Shown here one piece after another: positions 4,171 to 39,566 of a stretch of 40,783 bases of DNA; the stretch's first letter is position 1; every line of letters starts with the position of its first letter. Under the pieces are notes generated by a model that did no database searches, was not told the origin of the DNA, and saw only the letters and a program-made list of their open reading frames with translations. This stretch comes from a virus. The stretch lies in IMG/VR virus record IMGVR_UViG_3300047563_000061, positions 1 through 40,783 of that record. One strand, given 5' to 3'. The position numbers and the translations under genes are program-made.

Positions 4171-5655
4171 ATGTTAAAAACCGCAACCTTTCAGACCGCT
4201 ACAGGCGCAGCTGCTGCTGTAGCTTCCCTTGGTAAAGTCATCACTACCAATCCAGGTACACCTTTGAGTGAACTGGTTCGCTTGTCTAGCCCTATCTTCA
4301 CTTTGGGTGCAGACGGTAAGATCGCTAACACCACTGCTCAGAATCCTGATCCAACCAACGTCATGGATGATAACCAGTTCTTTGGTTTCATGGCAGAAGC
4401 TGCAACTACTGGCACTATTGACAATCCTAGCCAACATAGCTTGGAATTAGATGGTCTGATTAAAGACCTCTCTACCGTTGTAGGTGCTCACGTTTCCCAT
4501 GCGCGTAATGTAGTTCGTCCTTTGGTACAAGAGTTGGCAGTTGCTTTCACTAAGCATTTGACTGAAGCTAAGCCTGATGAAGCTGCCGACAACGCAACCA
4601 TCACTACACTGCGTCTGCCTGCTTTGTTGCGTGATGTTAGTTTCTTGGATACTCTGTCAGCATTCAAAGACAAAGCTATTCTGACTCCTGATCAAGCTTT
4701 CGGCCTGCCAGCCATCTCTAAGGAAGAGTTGGATGGTTTGTTGACTATCGGACATGACCGTAGCGACAAATTGATCGTTGAATGGTTGTCTCATTTGCCT
4801 GAAGGTTTTGCTTTCAACGTTTGGAACACCTTCTTCATGGTGCAAGGTCGTGCAGGCTTTGAGTTGCAAGTTGACGCTATCGCTCGACTGAATCCTTTCA
4901 GTAAAGCTGACGTTGCATTGGCTATCCTCTTGATCTCCCGTAAGCTCGAAGCTAACGTGATGACCGTGGACTCCATGAACCTGAACACCTATAACAAGGT
5001 TTGTGCTCAATACGTGGAATACGCAAGCACTTTGCTGATCAATACACTGACCCGTGTAGAAGCTCTGACACGCGGTAAGGTCTTGGTAGTTGACAAAGAC
5101 CCACTGAAGATGCAAATCGCTGTGAACGGTGAACTCTATGGCGCTTGGCTGGAAGCTGGCGGTACTCCTGAAGTGATCCTGGGCGTTATGATCACTGAAG
5201 GTTCACCTGTTAGTATGTTGCTGATCGATGAGAAGAAAGACGAGTACCTGGCTCAATGGAACTCTTACTCGGTGTTCTACCGTGCACGTTCTGTGAACAA
5301 CAGTTTTGGCCGTGCTTTGAGTCAACTCGAAGTCTTGTTTGTAACAGGTCTGCAAGAGATGGGTGAAGAAGAGCGTGCAGTTCTGTCGACTCCTGCTTTG
5401 ATTGAAGCAGTGGTTGCTGAGGCTAACGCGTATATCCGCACCCAAATCAAACCTGACGATCTCAAAGATCCTTACATGATCGCGTTGATGCTGATTGCTA
5501 AGATTCGATTCAAGTACACATCTGCTTACCAGATCTTGAACGATATCGTAGAAGCCAGTAAGGTGAACGCTGGTGTTGATGTTCGTGAAGCAGCATTGCT
5601 TGCTGTGATCAATTACATCTCCGACTACTTTGCAGGTCAGATCAGCATTCAGTAA
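4171..5655 (+). CDS. Putative virion protein, 494 aa (phiKZ gp177 position)
   Basis: ATG at 4171 follows an ACGGGG ribosome site. The protein is mostly helical, with an Ala/Thr-rich start and no catalytic motif I can recognise. Codon use is smooth and strongly biased, as in the sheath and tube genes, which fits an abundant product. It sits between RNA polymerase beta and the prohead protease; in phiKZ the genes between gp178 and the protease gp175 encode virion proteins (from memory), so gp177 is the positional match. This is synteny inference, not demonstrated homology. Confidence 0.75.
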   Translation: MLKTATFQTATGAAAAVASLGKVITTNPGTPLSELVRLSSPIFTLGADGKIANTTAQNPDPTNVMDDNQFFGFMAEAATTGTIDNPSQHSLELDGLIKDLSTVVGAHVSHARNVVRPLVQELAVAFTKHLTEAKPDEAADNATITTLRLPALLRDVSFLDTLSAFKDKAILTPDQAFGLPAISKEELDGLLTIGHDRSDKLIVEWLSHLPEGFAFNVWNTFFMVQGRAGFELQVDAIARLNPFSKADVALAILLISRKLEANVMTVDSMNLNTYNKVCAQYVEYASTLLINTLTRVEALTRGKVLVVDKDPLKMQIAVNGELYGAWLEAGGTPEVILGVMITEGSPVSMLLIDEKKDEYLAQWNSYSVFYRARSVNNSFGRALSQLEVLFVTGLQEMGEEERAVLSTPALIEAVVAEANAYIRTQIKPDDLKDPYMIALMLIAKIRFKYTSAYQILNDIVEASKVNAGVDVREAALLAVINYISDYFAGQISIQ

Positions 5656-5657
5656 CA

Positions 5658-6377
5658 ATGGCTAAATATAAGAGAGACGCAAATGCTGCACTCTCTTATC
5701 TCACCGAGAACACAGCGGGTCAAGTTCTTACAAAGAAAGCTTGTAAGATCCAGATCCCTGTGCGCTTTACTGAGATAGGTTTGGGTGAAGTTGGTATCAA
5801 CACGTTCAGCTATGGGTTCTTTCCCATTATCTTTGATACTAACGAGTACACCGTACTGAGCGCTTGCGCTATGGTGGAACTCAATCCTTATAAGTTAACA
5901 ACCGTCACGATTGATGAAACTGATTACTATGAGTTTTACTTTGACCCAGGTCAAGTAGTTATTAAAGCTACCGATTTGGTGAAGAAAGAAACTCTGATGT
6001 ATAACGTTTTTGACGAGTTCATCTTTAAGGGTAAGCTGCCGTGGTACGCTGAGTATGAAGACGTGGGTACACTTTTTGATACAGCACTTTACCATGCTGG
6101 CTCAAAGGTTGCTCAAAATTTGGAAGTTGTTGAGTTTGTAGCTTCCATGATTTCACGTTCTAAGGATGATCGTACGAAGTATATTCGTACTGTTGCTAAT
6201 GCTTACTCTGACGTTCGGTTAGAGAAAGTAGACTTTGTACCACTCAAGAGTGTGTTCTATTCGGTCAATAGCACGTTAAACAAGATAGCCGGTAGTTACT
6301 TCAATGATGGCGTAACTAGCGCACTTGTTCAGCCATCTGAAAACGTCGAGAAGATTGAGGCTATCATTCGTCGCTGA
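5658..6377 (+). CDS. Putative head protein, 239 aa (phiKZ gp176 position)
   Basis: Starts two bases after the preceding stop (TAACAATGG), a coupled arrangement, and ends 8 bases before the protease gene. The product starts MAKYKRDANAALSYL, is a mixed alpha/beta soluble protein with many aromatic residues (DYYEFYFDPG), and has no known motif. Context places it in the head morphogenesis unit; by position it corresponds to phiKZ gp176. Confidence 0.75.
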   Translation: MAKYKRDANAALSYLTENTAGQVLTKKACKIQIPVRFTEIGLGEVGINTFSYGFFPIIFDTNEYTVLSACAMVELNPYKLTTVTIDETDYYEFYFDPGQVVIKATDLVKKETLMYNVFDEFIFKGKLPWYAEYEDVGTLFDTALYHAGSKVAQNLEVVEFVASMISRSKDDRTKYIRTVANAYSDVRLEKVDFVPLKSVFYSVNSTLNKIAGSYFNDGVTSALVQPSENVEKIEAIIRR

Positions 6378-13771: not shown

Positions 13772-14725
13772 ATGACTATATACAACGATTGCTACGATAC
13801 AACAGTAGGTTCTGCAGTGCCTACAAAACCCATTGAGATCGCCATCAAAGAGGCTATTATTAAGGACGGACTAGCTCATAGGAACTACCGCATCCGGGAT
13901 GTTGGTTCTATTAAACCAATATTAATTACTGGAAGTTCGGATAGCGAGACACAAATCCCACTATTCGCTCATCCAATTACGATAAAGAACTCACACAGTG
14001 AGCAGTATATGTGTGCTGATGCAAGGTTCTTCGTGAGGAAAGATACCCCACTTGATATCATTGAAAAAAGCATCAAGAACAGTACTGAATTCAATTTGAC
14101 CGTAAGTCGCTTGGTTCTGAGCATGCTTTGGCAAGATAACCAGACTCAGCGCTTGAAGAATGGTTTACAGTTTGCAGGTATTGTCTACGCTGCTTGGTTG
14201 AGTGAGAGTATCTCTAAGAATTTTGCTTTGGACTATAAAGACCAAACCGTTTTGAATGTTTTGACTCATTTCTTCTACCAGACTCTCTTTATCCAAGAGG
14301 AGGCTTTGGATCAAGACATGCGTGACCGTATTGCAGCGCAGACTATCAAAGCGACAAAGGTACCTGCTGAATTCGTGATGTCCGTCATTGACAAAGCGGG
14401 TTCTATGACCAACATCGAGCAATACTGCGTAGCAGTGTCTAACGTGTTGGAAAACGTTCGTTTGAAGAGCTTCAACACAGCGGTTCTTTTGACCATCGTG
14501 AAGAACTCTTGGTACGGTACCAACGGCAAGGAAATCATTGCTGTAGCACTGGAGCATCCTCCTACATGGATTGCTGTAGTCTGGGCAGCTACTAACGAGC
14601 GCACCTTTAGTAACTCTTTGATTGCTCGACTCTGTGATCGTTTTGGTAAACGCGGAGCTGCTGATGAATTCAACAGCGCATACCGCAGCATTATCAACGA
14701 ACACATTGAACAGGCGTCAAACTAA
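13772..14725 (+). CDS. Putative virion/tail protein, 317 aa (phiKZ gp28 position)
   Basis: ATG 13772 (MTIYNDCYDTTVGS) is chosen over a TTG at 13763; no strong ribosome site is visible. The C-terminal two thirds are helical. It is divergent from the sheath and 30 bases upstream of a large structural gene. In phiKZ genes 26-28 lie between terminase (25) and sheath (29); the order here agrees, making this the gp28 position. That is inference from order. Confidence 0.75.
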   Translation: MTIYNDCYDTTVGSAVPTKPIEIAIKEAIIKDGLAHRNYRIRDVGSIKPILITGSSDSETQIPLFAHPITIKNSHSEQYMCADARFFVRKDTPLDIIEKSIKNSTEFNLTVSRLVLSMLWQDNQTQRLKNGLQFAGIVYAAWLSESISKNFALDYKDQTVLNVLTHFFYQTLFIQEEALDQDMRDRIAAQTIKATKVPAEFVMSVIDKAGSMTNIEQYCVAVSNVLENVRLKSFNTAVLLTIVKNSWYGTNGKEIIAVALEHPPTWIAVVWAATNERTFSNSLIARLCDRFGKRGAADEFNSAYRSIINEHIEQASN

Positions 14726-17364: not shown

Positions 17365-19032
17365 ATGCCTAGTACTACATTGGGGGTCGTAGGTACTGAC
17401 GGGAAAGTTCCCGTTTATGAACCTAACGGCCGCTGGTGTCTGTGGTCTATAACTGAAATCTACCGTGGTCTTGCTGCGGAGAATACCTTTGTTCCTAAGA
17501 TCAAAGATTACGTTATTGATCCTGATACCTATACAACGTATATCGTCGACGACTTGGATACCGTGACGTTGATCCCGACCTTACGGGAGATCCGTCCTGC
17601 TAATATGAGCTTTAGTTTCACTGAGACTGATGTTCTGTTTGGTGTGGGTCCTGGTACTCAGTCTGATACTTACCGTGTTTATCTAGATACTTCCGTACTG
17701 CCGCATGTGTTGGCAGTGGATGAACGCTTGAGGGTAGGCGGCTCCATGACCAGCTATGCCAAGATCTTCAAAGGATCTTCCGTAGGCGGTACTGGTGAAG
17801 TCATCTCTAAGACTTACGACAGCGCAGGACAGTTTGTCTCTGAGAGCATAGGTCTTGAGTTGGCAGCTATCGATAGTCACAACAATCACACCATCAAAAC
17901 GGTGAAGGTCTGTCATTGCACAGAGCAATTACTTGATGGTGAAGTGGTAACTATCGTGTTCTACAGTGACTCGGGTCACGTAGTCTCTAAACGACAGCTC
18001 TTGGTAGAGAATACCGCATTCATCCGTGGTGTGAATCGTTCACTGAAATATGTGACACATATCAGCATGGATAGTCCTTTCATGTCACCGACCTTGGATA
18101 AGACCATTCAGTACCCACTGAACATTCCTATTAATGCGTTGAACTTGGTAGGTACGGTGCACTACTCCAATGGTGAGACTCTGAAGCTACCTGTAGATGG
18201 TACTAAGTTCCGTATCTTCGGACTGGAACAATACACCTCTACGATCATTGGTCAGAAAATGGATCTGGTATTGTCCTATAGTTTGTCGCCTAACGAGACT
18301 GCGTATGGTGCAGTGGGTGCAAACAACAAGATGATCACGGAGCCTTATGAGCTGATCACGGTCAATCCTAATAACAGCTACACCGTTAAGTTGTTTGGAT
18401 ATCCGTTCTGGGTCAACAGTGCAACAGGTTACCAGATGCGTTGGTGGTTGTTTAACTTGGATCGTAACGTCTTCTTTGAAGTTACTAACCAGGTGAGCTT
18501 TAACCAAAACACCAATGCGTATGATCCTAAGGCCTACGGATACATGCAACGTAAGAGCGTGAGCTTGAACCTGCGTGATGTCTCTGGCGCCTTTAAACCA
18601 TTTGTGCATACTCAGACCGTTGAGATCGTTCTGAATGGTGAACCTCAGACAGATGCCACCTCCTGGACTATGTCACATGAATCCAATGGCAGTCGTCCGT
18701 CCTATGGTCGTGACCTCTTTGCTAAGAAGATCTCTGCAACGAGTATCAACCTAGGAAGTGCTCTGGCTGATCTGGAAACTTGGAAGACACGTGTCTATAA
18801 GGAAACCTTCCCATTGGTAAACCCCAATACGGAAGTTGGACCTTTGGATCCTACACACTTTGCAGTAACCTTCAACAACGTTACAACAGAGTATCCTATC
18901 AGTGAATGGAATACCAACCTGACTGTGACGGGTACTGTAACTGTGTTCAGTACTGCTTTAGTGCGTTTCATTAAGCGCACCGCATCCGGTGACTTGATGC
19001 TGAGTATCTCGGCATTGATTGTTCGTCCATAA
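17365..19032 (+). CDS. Putative virion structural protein, 555 aa (phiKZ gp26 position)
   Basis: ATG 17365 follows AAAGGAATG at normal spacing. It is a beta-rich protein with sandwich-like stretches (YELITVNPNNSYTVKLFGY, VTGTVTVFSTALV). The style resembles the preceding 865-aa protein, so both probably belong to the same virion substructure. It ends at a strong terminator, closing the structural block 13772-19032. No functional motif recognised. Confidence 0.75.
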   Translation: MPSTTLGVVGTDGKVPVYEPNGRWCLWSITEIYRGLAAENTFVPKIKDYVIDPDTYTTYIVDDLDTVTLIPTLREIRPANMSFSFTETDVLFGVGPGTQSDTYRVYLDTSVLPHVLAVDERLRVGGSMTSYAKIFKGSSVGGTGEVISKTYDSAGQFVSESIGLELAAIDSHNNHTIKTVKVCHCTEQLLDGEVVTIVFYSDSGHVVSKRQLLVENTAFIRGVNRSLKYVTHISMDSPFMSPTLDKTIQYPLNIPINALNLVGTVHYSNGETLKLPVDGTKFRIFGLEQYTSTIIGQKMDLVLSYSLSPNETAYGAVGANNKMITEPYELITVNPNNSYTVKLFGYPFWVNSATGYQMRWWLFNLDRNVFFEVTNQVSFNQNTNAYDPKAYGYMQRKSVSLNLRDVSGAFKPFVHTQTVEIVLNGEPQTDATSWTMSHESNGSRPSYGRDLFAKKISATSINLGSALADLETWKTRVYKETFPLVNPNTEVGPLDPTHFAVTFNNVTTEYPISEWNTNLTVTGTVTVFSTALVRFIKRTASGDLMLSISALIVRP

Positions 19033-25546: not shown

Positions 25547-25623
25547 GGAGTTCTCCTTCCGTATCTATAGATGTTTATCATTGATCATACTATCCGTCTA
25601 ACTAACCTAACGGACACAAACCC

Positions 25624-25681
25624 CTATACTAAGGGAAGTACCGAACTTTGCAGTACTTCCCTTAGTATAGTAGGTCTTTTT
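25624..25681 (+). terminator. 18-bp hairpin with T tract, rightward
   Basis: Perfect 18-bp stem (25624-25641 with 25653-25670) followed by TAGGTCTTTTT on the plus strand only. No plus-strand gene lies upstream, so it would stop an antisense or leader transcript; on the minus strand it lies in the leader of the 25546 gene. Confidence 0.65.
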
Positions 25682-26074
25682 CATCAAAAATGTAGGGTTT
25701 CCCTAGGGTTTCTCTGCTAAAATAATAAAAAAAGAAATATTCCTATAGTATGATTATTGGGTGTTTCTATAAGGGTACCTTATGTAGTAACGTCTCCTTC
25801 TAAAATGGTGTTTTCAGAGGTATACAGTTTGGTACATAAACAGTAGGTATCAACAGTGATAGATAACTAGTTCGTTACACTCAAGAGTAGGAAGGTGGAC
25901 TGATTACGTTCACTTCGTTCTCTCCATCAGGTTTTTCTTCAAAGTAAAAGAACTTAAAGGAAAAACCTTGCCCATATACATATAACAGTTGATAATAAAA
26001 AAACAATCAAAAGACCAACCGTTATATATGGCGCGCGTTTCTCACCATTCCTTTCTTAAATATCCCTTGGTCAC

Positions 26075-26091
26075 ATATACTGTACTTGATA
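26075..26091 (+). promoter_or_regulatory. Early-type phage promoter, copy 4
   Basis: ATATACTGTACTTGATA with upstream CCTTTCTTAAATA. It precedes the transglycosylase-PhuZ operon with an approximately 100-base leader. Confidence 0.65.
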
Positions 26092-26184
26092 GGTAGACTC
26101 CCTCTATCTGCTATGAAGGTCTAAAGGAAAAGAGTTCCTGTAACCCCTTTATCTTGTGCAGCTATAACTGAAAGGTTCGTATTG

Positions 26185-31775: not shown

Positions 31776-32174
31776 ATGACAACCCCTTTGCAACTCAACA
31801 AGATCTACACGTTTAATACCCTAGCTCCCGCTATCCTTGGTGCACAGATCAAGAACGCTAAGCTCTTGGGTATCGTAGATTACAGCACCGCGCTGAACTA
31901 TGACAACGTAGATTTGCGTTTCCGTCAGATCTATCCGGTTCTGCCTGCAAACACCCCTAACCAACCAACCCTTTGCACGTACTATCGTTTCCAATCGGAG
32001 TCCGGTGAGAAGATCATTCTTGCAGACCAGTGGATCGACATGAACACGGTGACAGTGGTTGAACACGTGAACCTTCAGGTCACGTTCAGCAACGCTAAGC
32101 TGGAAGACGTTACGACTATCCGTGACGCCCTGAACGCTTTGGGATTCACCAACTTTGAAATCAAACAAGTCTAA
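31776..32174 (+). CDS. Predicted SH3-like beta-barrel protein, 132 aa
   Basis: ATG 31776 follows AAGGAAAG. The pattern LNKIYTFNTLAPAILGAQIK, then KLLGIVDYSTALN, then GEKIILADQWID, resembles small phage proteins predicted as SH3-like barrels of unknown role. Recognition is by general resemblance only. It lies 11 bases before the DHH phosphoesterase. Confidence 0.65.
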   Translation: MTTPLQLNKIYTFNTLAPAILGAQIKNAKLLGIVDYSTALNYDNVDLRFRQIYPVLPANTPNQPTLCTYYRFQSESGEKIILADQWIDMNTVTVVEHVNLQVTFSNAKLEDVTTIRDALNALGFTNFEIKQV

Positions 32175-33119: not shown

Positions 33120-33527
33120 ATGACAGAGCAAGTAAAGGCATTTGAAGATCTGATGATGATCTTAGTTACGCATCCCGACTTTGACAAAGCGTTAGTAAGA
33201 GTCGACACAGATGGTCAGGAGTTATTGACTCCGTGTCTTATCGATCCAAACATTATTGACGATGTTCCAACCGTAACAGAGTGTAAGGATCTTGTACTGA
33301 TTGTTCTTAAAGTCTATCAGTTCTTAGATCAATATTTCATTGATGTCAAAGGTCAATGTTCACGACTTTTCTACAACGTCAAACAAGCAGGCTTTAGAAC
33401 ACGCATCACAGAGCGTGATAGTTTTGGCCCTTTGGGATCTTGTGTATCTGTCCCTAAACTTGACAACAATGTATTTATCCGCACTGGCAGTATCGACGAT
33501 AAATGGTTTGAAATCTACTACGGGTAA
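33120..33527 (+). CDS. Unknown protein, 135 aa
   Basis: ATG 33120 (MTEQVKAFEDLMMILV) follows AAGGA; an upstream start at 33084 lies in the terminator. Soluble acidic protein, helix-rich N-terminus and beta-rich C-terminus ending IDDKWFEIYYG. No known family. Ends just before a terminator and the long noncoding tract. Confidence 0.7.
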   Translation: MTEQVKAFEDLMMILVTHPDFDKALVRVDTDGQELLTPCLIDPNIIDDVPTVTECKDLVLIVLKVYQFLDQYFIDVKGQCSRLFYNVKQAGFRTRITERDSFGPLGSCVSVPKLDNNVFIRTGSIDDKWFEIYYG

Positions 33528-33532
33528 AACAG

Positions 33533-33569
33533 AAAAGACACTTTTTTCAAGGTGTCTTTTTTTTTGTGT
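33533..33569 (+). terminator. Terminator after the 135-aa gene
   Basis: 9-bp stem (33533-33541 with 33552-33560) merging into a run of T. Confidence 0.85.
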
Positions 33570-33902
33570 ACTTCTCTATATGTTATGACGAACCACGTCG
33601 TAGATACTTAATTTGTTACGGTGTACATGCCGTTACATATTTCCCACCTGAACGACGCTGTTTATCAAGTGCTTGGTATCACTTAAATCATGACAAGTAT
33701 CATTGTACTGCGATTACCTAATCGCTTGCGATGACGCGATCGCTGCACTAATTAACTACGCGAAACTTGATCGCATGGGCCTAAACTTTCATTACCTTAG
33801 CACCATGATCAACGCTTAAGTGAAGTTACTTAGATAGAATGGAGGTCAACTCTTTGTCTTAAGAGATAGGTAGAGGGCTGACTTCCATCGCGATTTCTTT
33901 TT
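33570..33902 (+). other. Noncoding structured segment A
   Basis: No gene. Several hairpins: near 33709-33725 (GCGAT with ATCGC), a long pairing of TTGATC..ATGG near 33767 with CCATGATCAA near 33803, and a 10-bp stem at 33839-33848 with 33879-33888 followed by ATTTCTTTTT, resembling a terminator. Could be a separate RNA or the 5' part of the next. Confidence 0.35.
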
Positions 33903-33904
33903 AA

Positions 33905-34530
33905 CCCAGAATTCAAAAATCTCTCTGGAAAACTTGTAACCTGGTTCACAAACACTTTTGTGGTTTAAGCTCTTTTAAGAAATGATGATGGTGAGTTTCT
34001 TAAAGGGATATAACGGCTTAGATAGTGAATGGTTATGAAGTCTTTTGTTTATAAGCACTTAGCTTCACTTTCACGAGTGGAGGCGTTTCGGGAATTTCGC
34101 TTGTGCCTATAGATAGAAGTTGGACTCCTAGTGAGACATGTAGACCAAGGCCTGGGAACCAAGGTTTGCATAATGAGTCCACGTCACGAGGTATCTATAG
34201 GCCAGATCATCCATTGGAGATCATAGTGTCTATTCCTACCGAAAGCGAAAGCTACGTGGCATATGAGGCTAGTCTGATCAGCCTGACTTTATAAACCCTG
34301 TAGCATCAGAGTAACAGGACAAAAAGCTTAGAGTAGCTAGGATGAAAGACCTAGTGCAGCCCGTGAGGTGCTTGCGTAATGACTCCTGAAGTAGGTCTAT
34401 TTGACCCGCGACATATGTCCGTGTGGATTCACCTAGAGTAGTTGCAGCTTGTTGTAAGCTCCTACTCTAGGCATATGTTTAAACCTTACACTCAGATCCA
34501 GATACCGGTTTACCGGTATCTGGATCTTTT
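33905..34530 (+). ncRNA. Candidate large structured RNA B
   Basis: About 620 bases without a credible gene but with nested helices: a bulged 10-bp stem 33972-34005; an 11-bp helix 34105-34115 with 34192-34202 enclosing a 6-bp helix 34122-34127 with 34175-34180; hairpins near 34267-34285, 34298-34319 and 34337-34353; and a 7-bp helix (34411-34417 with 34472-34478) enclosing a 10-bp helix (34432-34441 with 34462-34471). It ends in a 16-bp terminator (34494-34530). Its own promoter is not evident. A 63-codon frame (34103-34294) overlaps the helices and is not believed. Confidence 0.45.
34494..34530 (+). terminator. Terminator after structured RNA B
   Basis: 16-bp stem (34494-34509 with 34512-34527), then TTTT. 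Confidence 0.85.
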
Positions 34531-34557
34531 GTACCCTTTGTAAAAAATACTAGACAC

Positions 34558-34573
34558 ATATACATTAATTGAG
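34558..34573 (+). promoter_or_regulatory. Early-type phage promoter, copy 7
   Basis: ATATACATTAATTGAG with upstream CCCTTTGTAAAAAATA. No coding gene follows for 600 bases, only the structured RNA. Confidence 0.65.
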
Positions 34574-35160
34574 AACACTAGCAATAGTGAACTTAACGTA
34601 CGGTAAGAGGCCTGCCGTTATAGGACCAATGCGAAATCCGACAAATTCACCACGTACGCTCGATAGAGGTTAGTGGTCTATGCGTTTGACATGTAGTAAG
34701 TTCTAGGCTGGAAGAGTGACACTCCCGGCCATATTAACTATAACGTGATAAACGTAAGTTGTATGGCGCCCTTCACTATGGCTTACCATAGTGATTCTCT
34801 CGGGATATGGGACCGGTATAGCCAGATACTGGTTTCAGAGTTTAAACCTGGACCCTCACGTTTGAGAAAGAACTAGCGGAGTGACTAAACCTAATAAGCG
34901 GTTCGCCGCAGGGGAAGTTGCATTGATGCAATAAGAGGTGCCGTGAAAGCTTCGTGATTAAGCTGGAGAGTCAGTGCATGACTATCGTAATAGATCAAGG
35001 TTGTTGGTTACACGACCGATGCATAGTAACAAGTAAGAGTCGACGCTTGCCTGTAGGGAATTGACGTTACGAGTTAGTTCCTTATGGAGAAACGTTTTTC
35101 CTCCCTGGCGCAACAGTGCGCTTTAAGACATCCAAGCTTCAAAACTTGGATGTCATTTTT
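34570..35160 (+). ncRNA. Candidate large structured noncoding RNA C
   Basis: About 590 bases bounded by an early-type promoter and an intrinsic terminator, with no credible open frame. Readable hairpins: 34706-34730 (6 plus 4 bp); 34774-34793 (perfect 8 bp, CTTA loop); 34812-34833 (8 bp); 34898-34909 (4 bp closing a TTCG loop); 34918-34931 (6 bp); 34969-34983 (5 bp); 35108-35121 (5 bp); plus a longer-range pairing near 34621-34628 with 34674-34680. Size and architecture recall the ornate large RNAs of phages (GOLLD, ROOL), but I cannot assign it to a family. It is not a tRNA cluster and has no riboswitch signature I recognise. Confidence 0.6.
35127..35160 (+). terminator. Terminator after structured RNA C
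   Basis: 10-bp stem (35127-35136 with 35145-35154), then ATTTTTT. Confidence 0.85.
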
Positions 35161-35175
35161 TATACCCTCAACATC

Positions 35176-35460
35176 ATGAATAAAACTGAACCCACTAAGG
35201 TAACGGAAGAACCCGTGATGTCCGATATCTTCTCCGGTAGTCAAATAGTCAAACAAGTAACTACGGTTAGCCCTGCTTATAACGGTTGGAACTTCTGCTC
35301 TAACCTTGTGTCAGCTATCGTAGGTATCTTCATGCTAGTTGCTTGGTTAACGGGTTTTGTCATTGCCAAAGGTTTCTGGAGTACTTTTGCATGTATGTTT
35401 CCTTTCTATGCCTGGTATCTAACCTTAGAACATTTCTTGGTAAAGTATTCCTTAGTCTAG
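35176..35460 (+). CDS. Small membrane protein, 94 aa
   Basis: ATG 35176 (MNKTEPTKVTEEPVMSD) is preferred over a start at 35116, which lies inside RNA C and its terminator. No strong ribosome site. A hydrophilic N-terminus of about 35 residues precedes two transmembrane stretches (LVSAIVGIFMLVAWLTGFVI; then WSTFACMFPFYAWYLTLEHF). A second membrane-type frame overlaps its end at 35391-35588. Function unknown. Confidence 0.6.
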   Translation: MNKTEPTKVTEEPVMSDIFSGSQIVKQVTTVSPAYNGWNFCSNLVSAIVGIFMLVAWLTGFVIAKGFWSTFACMFPFYAWYLTLEHFLVKYSLV

Positions 35461-35588
35461 ATAAAGGTTTAGATTACTTCCTGGATAACGTGGTAGTTCC
35501 TGTAGCACTCGTATACTGCGTCTATGCAGTATGGTCTATTGTGATAGCTGTTTTCTGGTTTACGTTTAGCACACTTCTCACACACTAA
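35391..35588 (+). CDS. Overlapping small membrane frame, 65 aa
   Basis: Open frame in another phase, overlapping the 94-aa gene by 70 bases. ATG 35391 has TGGAG at 35377-35381. The C-terminal half is clearly hydrophobic (VVVPVALVYCVYAVWSIVI). It may be a separate overlapping gene, or the true C-terminus of the preceding protein reached by a frameshift. Confidence 0.4.
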   Translation: MYVSFLCLVSNLRTFLGKVFLSLDKGLDYFLDNVVVPVALVYCVYAVWSIVIAVFWFTFSTLLTH

Positions 35589-35646
35589 CGCCTGTTCTAG
35601 CCCAAGTGCTTTATGGTTGCGGTTAGAGGAGTGTGCGCCTATGATG

Positions 35647-35696
35647 TATAAGAACGATGACGAGTGATGTCATCGTTCTTATACTCTTTCTTTTTT
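35647..35696 (+). terminator. Terminator after the membrane genes
   Basis: Perfect 15-bp stem (35647-35661 with 35669-35683), then CTCTTTCTTTTTT. Confidence 0.9.
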
Positions 35697-35738
35697 GCCG
35701 TTGATTTATCAAAGCACCTTATAAAGTATTTCAGTCAC

Positions 35739-35754
35739 ATATACTTTAGTTGAG
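35739..35754 (+). promoter_or_regulatory. Early-type phage promoter, copy 8
   Basis: ATATACTTTAGTTGAG, perfect consensus; upstream CCTTATAAAGTATTTCA is nearly the same as in copy 9. Confidence 0.75.
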
Positions 35755-36008
35755 CATTGGGCTCTAATTTTACTCACCCTTATACACCATAAAGTTATTT
35801 AAACATAACTATCATCCTATGATGGGTAGTTGACACGACAGGGCGAAGAACGCTGCGTAAGCTGCGAGAAGCGATTCCTTCTTGTCAACTACTCGTTATT
35901 GTCGCGCCAGGGAGAACGGACAAGAGGAGAGGTATAAGAGTATACCTTAACATAATTTCTAATGAACGGGCTCTTCATTAGAACAACCAACTGCAAAATC
36001 TGTCACAA
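35755..36008 (+). promoter_or_regulatory. Long structured leader of the 97-aa gene
   Basis: About 250 bases between promoter and ATG without a gene. Contains a 10-bp stem (35826-35835 with 35883-35892) enclosing smaller hairpins, a 6-bp hairpin at 35931-35946, and a 9-bp hairpin at 35958-35983. Either a regulatory 5' leader or another small RNA. Confidence 0.45.
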
Positions 36009-36302
36009 ATGTCTGCTAAGACCGTAGAACTATCTGTACTGTTGTCTCTCTTTAATGGGTATGAGGTCCTAGATGTTACGCCGCAAGATGTAACCGAGGT
36101 GGTCTCCCATGTTCATGGTATCCCTAAGGAAGGGGTTACAGGAGACTTGGTTGAACAAGCCATTGAGTACATTGAGCAAAAGCATCCCAAGGTAGCTGAA
36201 GCTGCAAGACTTGTAGCGCATCTGCCTCCTGATGAAGGTCGGTATAACAAACTTATCGACCTGTTCCGTAAATGGTTTCACATCGAACCAATGATCGCCT
36301 AA
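36009..36302 (+). CDS. Unknown small protein, 97 aa
   Basis: ATG 36009 with no visible Shine-Dalgarno, unusual here and consistent with control by the structured leader. Soluble, acidic, mostly helical (VTGDLVEQAIEYIEQKHPKV), ending FRKWFHIEPMIA. No family recognised. Monocistronic, between promoter copy 8 and a terminator. Confidence 0.7.
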   Translation: MSAKTVELSVLLSLFNGYEVLDVTPQDVTEVVSHVHGIPKEGVTGDLVEQAIEYIEQKHPKVAEAARLVAHLPPDEGRYNKLIDLFRKWFHIEPMIA

Positions 36303-37439: not shown

Positions 37440-39566
37440 ATGTCCGAGAATCTATTTCTAAAACCAGAAGAATACTATCAGAGAAAGATTAATCCGCTTG
37501 CCCAGTACGTAGAACAGACAGGCTTTTACTTGTCTAAAATGACAGGTCAAGATGTCACAGTTTGCAGACAGCGTGTTCGTGATGGTATCAAAGCACGGGC
37601 TTTCCCACAGCAAACCGATCCTATTGTTACGTACTTTGAACGCGATGATAACCAAGACCGCACGAAAGAACAGATTCGTTTGAGTCAGTACATCGGTCAA
37701 GTGGTAGCCAATGAAGAGATCCTAGTTCCCACGTTCACTAGTTACTTACCTACTAAAGTACGTAAGTCCATCCTTGTGGGTTTCATCGATAACAACGTGA
37801 AACTGCGTAGTGCCGCTAAGAAGGCAGCTTTTGTAGCTGAAGCTGAGAAACGTACTGACGACTACATCATGTTGAACAATGAGCAAACTAACCGTAAGCT
37901 CTATAACAACTCGATGTCGGGAGCCTTTGCGGCTGGTGGTTCTATTGTGAACAATCCTACAGGTCACAATACGTTAACCTCTATGACGCGGACAGTTAGT
38001 TCCATGGGTAACTCCTCTAACGAGAAGATTATCATGGGTAACCGTCATTATCATAGTCCAGACGTCACGCTCTTTAATATCATCAGCATTACCAATGGCT
38101 TAGTGCGTGAAGAGTTAGAACCTGTGATGCAGAAGTATGGTTTAGTCTATCCTACTGTTCAACAGACGCTGGATTGCATTACCTACTCGTCGGATCTATA
38201 TTGGAAAGATATCAAAGCTTTCAAAAAGATCCAAGACTTTGTAGAACATTTAGACCCGTTAGAGCGCGCAGCCTTTGTCTATTGCGGGGATTTCTTCCAC
38301 ATACGCAAATACAACGAAGACTTCACACGTAAGTTCCTGGGCACTTTGATGAGTAAAGTTAAAGGTGTTCCTGTTGAAGAACCCTTGAAACGTATCCATC
38401 AGTTCGATGAACAGATCGTGAACTATGCGCACCAGATCTGTATGAAGGAACTCCGTGGAGCTGGTAAGGCCTATGAGAAGCTTCCGATTGAAGATCTTTA
38501 TACCTTGATTGCCACCTGTCAAAACATCGAAGACTTTGTGATCCGTCATAAGGACTTCATCAATGCTATCTTCTTGACCGATAACGTACCAGGGTCTACT
38601 GCTTACATTACGAACATGATCCGTAGAACCGTGGTTCTCTCGGATACAGATAGTACGATGTTCGCTATTGATGATTGGGTTATCTGGCATCGTGGACAAC
38701 TTGTCTTTGACGATGAAGCCTATGCGCTTGCAGGCGCGATGATGTTCATTGCAACACAGTGTATCGCTCACTGCTTGGCTATCTTCTCCGCTAACATGGG
38801 CGTTGAGCGTAAGAAACTCTTCATGTTGGCAATGAAACCTGAGTATGTGTTTCCTCTACATTGTCAGACATCGGTAGCTAAACATTACTTTGCATCCATG
38901 GCAGTGAAAGAAGGTAACGTCTACCCGGAGCATAAAAGTGAGATCAAAGGCGTAGGTTTAAAGAACAGCGCAGCGCCTAAGGACCTTATTAAGGATTCTC
39001 AGGCTAAGATGGTAGAGATCATGAAAATCATCCATGACGGTGGAAAGATCTCTTTGGTCAATGAGTTAACGCGTGTAGCTAATATCGAGCGTAAGATCCG
39101 AGACTCTTTGCTTGACGGTAACGTTGAGTACTATAAGCAGTCTAAGATCAAAGACGCTGAGGCGTATGCAAGGTCGGCTACAGAGAGTCCTTACATGTAT
39201 CACATGTTTTGGGAAACTGTATTTGCACCTAAGTACAATTCAATGGCGGCTCCACCTTACTCAGTGATCAAGATTCCATTGATGACTGACAATCCTACCA
39301 AGCTTAGTAATTGGATCAATGGAATAGCAGATAAAGAACTCTCTAAGCGTTTGCTTGATTTTCTAGTTCAGCATAAGAAGAAAGCCCTTGGTACTTTCTA
39401 CATCTCCTCACAGTACGTGAAGTCCTTTGGTATCCCTGAGGAGTTCAAACCTGTGATTAACGTGAAGAAGATTGCTTTGGACTTGACATCTCAGGACCGT
39501 ATGGTCTTGGAAACTTTGGGGTTTTATCCAAAGGTTGACTGGTTAATTAGTGAACAAGGTTATTAA
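37440..39566 (+). CDS. Family B DNA polymerase, C-terminal (palm/thumb) part
   Basis: Part of the phage replicative polymerase. Near residue 150 TNRKLYNNSMSGAF fits PolB motif B (KxxxNSxxG), and near residue 403 VVLSDTDSTMFAIDDW is motif C (DTDS), holding one catalytic Asp pair. No motif A (DxxSLYPS-like) and no 3'-5' exonuclease motifs are present in the 708 residues, so the N-terminal half must be encoded elsewhere: a split polymerase. The upstream gene is Nudix, so the partner is not adjacent. The start at 37440 follows AGAGGA. The upstream frame is closed by the terminator at 37354, so this is not a cut-off larger gene. Confidence 0.8.
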   Translation: MSENLFLKPEEYYQRKINPLAQYVEQTGFYLSKMTGQDVTVCRQRVRDGIKARAFPQQTDPIVTYFERDDNQDRTKEQIRLSQYIGQVVANEEILVPTFTSYLPTKVRKSILVGFIDNNVKLRSAAKKAAFVAEAEKRTDDYIMLNNEQTNRKLYNNSMSGAFAAGGSIVNNPTGHNTLTSMTRTVSSMGNSSNEKIIMGNRHYHSPDVTLFNIISITNGLVREELEPVMQKYGLVYPTVQQTLDCITYSSDLYWKDIKAFKKIQDFVEHLDPLERAAFVYCGDFFHIRKYNEDFTRKFLGTLMSKVKGVPVEEPLKRIHQFDEQIVNYAHQICMKELRGAGKAYEKLPIEDLYTLIATCQNIEDFVIRHKDFINAIFLTDNVPGSTAYITNMIRRTVVLSDTDSTMFAIDDWVIWHRGQLVFDDEAYALAGAMMFIATQCIAHCLAIFSANMGVERKKLFMLAMKPEYVFPLHCQTSVAKHYFASMAVKEGNVYPEHKSEIKGVGLKNSAAPKDLIKDSQAKMVEIMKIIHDGGKISLVNELTRVANIERKIRDSLLDGNVEYYKQSKIKDAEAYARSATESPYMYHMFWETVFAPKYNSMAAPPYSVIKIPLMTDNPTKLSNWINGIADKELSKRLLDFLVQHKKKALGTFYISSQYVKSFGIPEEFKPVINVKKIALDLTSQDRMVLETLGFYPKVDWLISEQGY

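Follow-up and report, generated by a model that had tools for sequence, protein, structure and literature searches.

Several large noncoding RNAs of phages offer parallels to the locus described here. ROOL (659 nt) and GOLLD (often >800 nt) are large, ornate RNAs encoded by phages and prophages, often near tRNA islands; no function is described for them (PMC12286853). A review also states that phiKZ expresses noncoding RNAs (PMC13282480), and in a candidate source for that statement, PMC10914614, the words non-coding, noncoding, ncRNA and sRNA are absent. With respect to transcription, PMC7598289 indicates that the late promoters of phiKZ follow a TATG rule and that the early motifs of RNA polymerase-encoding jumbo phages, AT-rich and near position -10, are specific to each phage. 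Against this background, we analyzed a 40,783-base stretch of DNA from an IMG/VR virus record (hereafter the window), in which a region, RNA B, lies upstream of a second such region, RNA C (Table 1). Like ROOL and GOLLD, B is phage encoded and of similar size; unlike them, it lacks a covariance-model match and appears as a stand-alone unit beside the DNA polymerase of a phiKZ-like phage. The parallel with the phiKZ RNAs is one of description rather than sequence, B and C being predicted noncoding transcripts of a probably nucleus-forming phage; Phabio, a Pseudomonas relative, has an interval of only 120 nt upstream of its polymerase. On balance, we consider it probable, with considerable room for doubt, that in this phiKZ-like jumbo phage B is a stand-alone gene for a structured noncoding RNA, situated in the interval between the phrog_3235 gene and the DNA polymerase and followed by the unrelated C gene.

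At the level of PHROGs and Rfam annotation, the window encodes pieces of an RNA polymerase beta subunit, a tail sheath protein, a terminase and a DNA polymerase, in addition to a tubulin/FtsZ-family protein. The two beta gene pieces are split by a group I intron, the sole Rfam Intron_gpI match (2337-2658), with none in the region of B and C. This gene content, with a tubulin and a multisubunit RNA polymerase, suggests a phiKZ-like jumbo phage, and one that is probably nucleus forming, although we identified no shell gene in the window. The DNA polymerase shares 39.5% identity with its counterpart in Burkholderia phage FLC9 and 53% with that of its best IMG/VR relative, locus L008 (L numbers denote the relative loci collected). 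A small protein encoded at 35176-35460, whose C-terminal half matches phrog_16613, is similar to short proteins encoded by Vibrio and Acinetobacter phages.

Table 1. Features of the locus in window coordinates
Feature	Position	Strand	Remarks
phrog_3235 gene, function not known; left landmark of the locus	31776..32174	+	PHROGs 1.2e-26
Terminator of the upstream gene (33120-33527)	33531..33562	+	14-pair stem and T run
Weak candidate for a late-type TATG start of B	33577..33587	+	11-mer TATATGTTATG; site with the same letters at the beginning of the L022 interval
RNA B, probable full extent, putative 5' end	33587..34535	+	Fold of 33587-34488, z -4.4; helix probabilities rise
RNA B, limits of the original prediction	33905..34535	+	z -6.6 with terminator, -3.0 without
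11-bp helix (34105-34115/34192-34202) with nested 7-bp helix (34121-34127/34175-34181)	34105..34202	+	
7-bp helix (34411-34417/34472-34478; poorly supported) around 10-bp helix (34432-34441/34462-34471)	34411..34478	+	
Terminator of B	34494..34531	+	16-bp hairpin 34494-34527 (arms 34494-34509/34512-34527), then CTTTTG
Putative early-type phage promoter of C	34538..34573	+	36-nt repeat at 35719-35754; seven-site window motif; also in L008 and L013
RNA C, predicted separate structured RNA	34573..35165	+	z -4.2 with terminator (34536-35170), -3.2 without
C segment complementary to 35897-35914	35101..35118	+	
Terminator of C	35127..35160	+	10-pair stem and T run
Putative early-type promoter for the transcript that follows (leader D, gene 36009)	35719..35754	+	Repeat and motif
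Structured leader D, including 35897-35914 complementary to C	35755..36008	+	z -2.8
DNA polymerase, right landmark of the locus	37440..39566	+	PHROGs 4.1e-205

The original prediction, made from the sequence of the window, placed a structured RNA at 33905-34530, with an 11-bp helix around a 6-bp one, a 7-bp helix enclosing a 10-bp one, and a 16-bp terminator. This structural observation is confirmed: the 11-bp helix, the 10-bp helix and the terminator are all present, as is the nested helix, albeit with 7 rather than 6 bp. The outer 7-bp helix can also be traced in the sequence, but the ensemble of folds gives it no support. In the fold of 33905-34535, the ensemble probabilities are 0.78 for the 11-bp helix, 0.62 for the nested helix, 0.67 for the 10-bp helix, 0.13 for the outer 7-bp helix and 0.99 for the terminator; when the 5' end is moved to 33587, the values become 0.98, 0.78, 0.93, 0.10 and 0.99, respectively. 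With the terminator left out and only Watson-Crick pairs and loops of at most 100 counted, 33905-34490 contains two helices of 10 bp or more, versus a mean of 0.035 in dinucleotide shuffles, none of which (0/200) reaches two. The folding energy is a weaker line of support than this helix count. Without the terminator, B has a z of -3.0 on both the plus and the minus strands, and among 25 coding segments of its length (mean z -1.5), six fold at least as well as B, which scored -3.27 in that script. The region is apparently noncoding: it falls in the longest gap of the window (33528-35175; 1,648 nt), which holds no wholly internal plus-strand open reading frame (ORF) of more than 63 aa, and the longest such ORF within 33905-34535 is a 63-aa frame with a GTG start.

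As to the limits of B, the terminator and the adjoining unit are real, while the 5' boundary at 33905 is probably misplaced. The signals in the sequence suggest that B probably starts farther upstream, near the TATG site at 33587, a weak site that ranks only tenth of the ten window TATG sites at or above its score. The early-type promoter motif of C is absent from B. That motif belongs to a 36-nt element that starts eleven bases past the hairpin of B and recurs, with 75% identity, ahead of leader D. Its core scores highly at seven window sites, all on the plus strand, with a matrix built from those same seven sites; across the window and its relatives, 16 of the 25 sites above threshold are intergenic, where intergenic DNA makes up 13% of the sequence. 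Five of the sites are in L008 and four in L013, all on the plus strand. The motif, which we read as a probable early-type promoter, fits the published AT-rich early motifs of RNA polymerase-encoding jumbo phages. Given that C has its own phage promoter and terminator and B its own terminator, the two are best regarded as separate adjacent units, and the tandem arrangement, with B directly upstream of C, is real as judged by these signals. The reading of B as a leader of C was discarded, as a terminator and a promoter stand between them.

The further interpretation of the tandem, as a duplication or a two-RNA system, is only partly supported. Within 33528-36010, B and C have a single direct repeat in common, of 14 nt, and a forced alignment of B against C yields no similar block, which argues against duplication. 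The best complementarity of B to C is no better than chance, with 135 of 300 shuffles equaling it, and pairing of B with leader D was likewise rejected (213/300). C itself might pair with leader D of the following transcript: the complementarity between its 3' segment and leader D is equaled by 5/1000 and 3/1000 shuffles, counts that precede correction for the several RNA pairs tested, and by none of 60 in an ungapped test. Each of the two segments is about half unpaired in the predicted folds. The interest of the finding lies in the locus.

The phrog_3235 gene, which gave tblastn matches in 75 of the relative loci collected at that stage, lies upstream of the polymerase on the same strand in 80 of 93 loci examined; removal by eye of 12 near-copies left 68 relatives. 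The interval between the two genes is at most 350 nt in 16 of these, 400-900 nt in 40 and >900 nt in 12. Some of the 400-900-nt intervals look coding, with ORFs of 141 to 234 aa in L009, L029, L060 and L087, which are among the 18 that have a plus-strand ORF of at least 60 aa; the other 22 have none. These 22 have a median folding z of -5.3, versus -1.5 for controls from the polymerase gene, with z at or below -3 in 16/22 versus 1/22; with the last 135 nt removed, the medians are -3.5 and -1.0 and the counts 14/22 and 1/22. Many relatives thus probably keep a structured RNA, roughly 400-600 nt long, in this interval. Rfam at the gathering threshold, run over 13 whole loci, detected no RNA at this interval, its only hits being group I introns elsewhere; the literature searched, with preprints and most subscription papers outside its scope, contained no description of such a pre-polymerase RNA. 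A general pairing of these RNAs with the polymerase leader was rejected (0/28 at or below 1/25 shuffles), in a test that omitted the last 125 nt of each RNA and hence the 3' segment of the FLC9-clade RNA considered below.

The clearest case is the FLC9 clade, for which we aligned six sequences (L003, L033, L024, L045, L041 and L038; two are 97% alike). The structure has 112 consensus pairs with 98.1% of cells paired, and 26 pairs show changes on both sides, against a shuffled mean of 15.3 (0/500 shuffles reach 26); sliding the partner reduces the double-sided changes to 2-6, although the structure was derived from that same alignment, which favors it over the slid versions. Covariation is clear, and the family is absent from Rfam. 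Its 3' segment has an 11-pair complementarity to the polymerase leader (helix 20) that never varies, and the alignment shows two nearly invariant segments with CCTCC, one of them the loop GGGGTTTCCTCCTTGTTTCCCC; it is conceivable that such loops pair with ribosome binding sites. A second conserved, noncoding-looking RNA of this clade is seen at 6940-7625 of L003, with homologues in L033, L037-L039, L041 and L042; 30 of its 203 predicted pairs covary, it has a terminator, and a small basic ORF of ~84 aa, conserved and recognized by eye, overlaps the 5' part of the RNA.

Like the FLC9-clade RNA, B sits between the phrog_3235 gene and the polymerase, lacks a long conserved ORF and ends in a terminator; unlike it, B is longer and farther from the polymerase, and the two have no common sequence. 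Position by itself is a loose guide for B, since the interval in the window is 5.3 kb and includes other inserted genes. Two models of the relatives' RNA, one of a motif (R1) and one of a domain (R2), fail to find B, and blastn gives no link from B to the pre-polymerase RNAs. This failure is not decisive, since the class evolves too fast and R2 also misses other groups within it. Hits from one search with these models are mostly plain hairpins, many on both strands. Also set aside was a likeness of 34149-34175 to the AAGGG...CCGGWTTGC of L030 and L048, which R1 does not recover. Broader searches likewise recovered no convincing relative of B or C: there was no such sequence match in named phages or 85 phage loci, and the best E value against 50 whole IMG/VR records was 0.05, some of those matches (query ~969-1008) falling on the promoter of C. 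Two pattern scans of viral contigs were without matches, and the 14 stretches from a third were dismissed as chance (alignment to C of at most 24 nt in every one). A search of genome contigs gave eight loci with short matches only, and a search for relative loci seeded with the window DNA polymerase alone was unproductive. Homology of B to the pre-polymerase class is thus not shown. The best reading is that B belongs by position, as an orphan, to a previously undescribed noncoding RNA locus of nucleus-forming jumbo phages.

The absence of a homologue, the weak promoter and the modest folding energy without the terminator are also what would be expected if B were simply a long spacer or untranslated RNA, with low-level read-through into a terminator, chance helices and no function as an RNA. 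We regard this as unlikely, though the most serious of the alternatives, because two long nonterminator helices are beyond the reach of the shuffles, a 0.9-kb gene-free gap is out of place in a gene-dense phage, and the same interval holds structured RNAs in relatives. B might also be what is left of a decayed tRNA or intron island, as suggested by the tRNA genes in the same interval of L008 and by tRNAs in gaps upstream of the polymerase in L059, L060 and L049. Yet ARAGORN, with or without introns, calls no tRNA in B, a relaxed threshold gives only low-scoring candidates spread across both strands, a T-arm motif pattern is not found, and Rfam has no match of any kind in 33500-36100 at E up to 5. 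These results led us to reject B as a tRNA, tmRNA or intron, and they make a remnant quite improbable. Least likely of all, B might be a ROOL- or GOLLD-like RNA that has diverged strongly and assembles into homo-oligomeric cages of RNA; size, phage origin and the tRNA island in a relative's interval are in its favor. Rfam 15 contains both families, in keeping with the account given above, and their covariance models match neither the window at the gathering threshold nor 33500-36100 at E up to 5.

The case for a noncoding RNA gene at B accordingly draws on the helices beyond chance, the terminator, the 1,648-nt gap without a long ORF, the promoter motif that C has in common with relatives, the folded intervals of those relatives and the covariation in the FLC9 clade; the missing homologue, the weak promoter, the mismatch to R1 and R2, the loose position, the coding controls that fold equally well and the likeness of the two strands weigh against it. 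If B is such a gene, a phage RNA polymerase would probably transcribe it from near 33587, transcription would end at the terminator hairpin, and the unrelated C gene would follow from its own putative early-type promoter. The folded product, were it stable, might then act in trans on translation or the ribosome during infection, a doubtful proposal that draws on the relatives and C, not on B itself. Slightly less speculative, though still tentative, is the idea that nucleus-forming jumbo phages have in common, beside the polymerase, an old and rapidly evolving gene for a structured RNA, absent from Rfam, whose version in the window has expanded into two separately timed RNAs, a late-type B and an early-type C, with C pairing with the next early leader. 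If true, the polymerase-adjacent RNA, including that of the clade to which the cultured Burkholderia phage FLC9 belongs, would be a testable model, and RNA would join a phage biology told mostly through proteins.

Other stretches of the window and its relatives deserve mention in their own right. L048 has two tandem group I introns at 18281-18929. In L008, two halves of an apparent tRNA-Leu(UAA), recognized by eye, lie about 600 nt apart at 5650-6331, with another tRNA-like sequence between them at about 5741-5829; neither ARAGORN with introns nor Rfam calls the split tRNA, which is possibly interrupted by a group I-like intron with a tRNA of its own inside. At 13780-13945 of the same locus, ~130 nt with no evident gene separate an early-type promoter from a terminator, possibly marking a small RNA. 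Another RNA may lie in the 635-nt gap between divergent genes at 25547-26181 of the window, where there is an 18-bp hairpin at 25624-25670, the TATG-type site at 25752 is the best in the window, and an early-type promoter is present at 26074.
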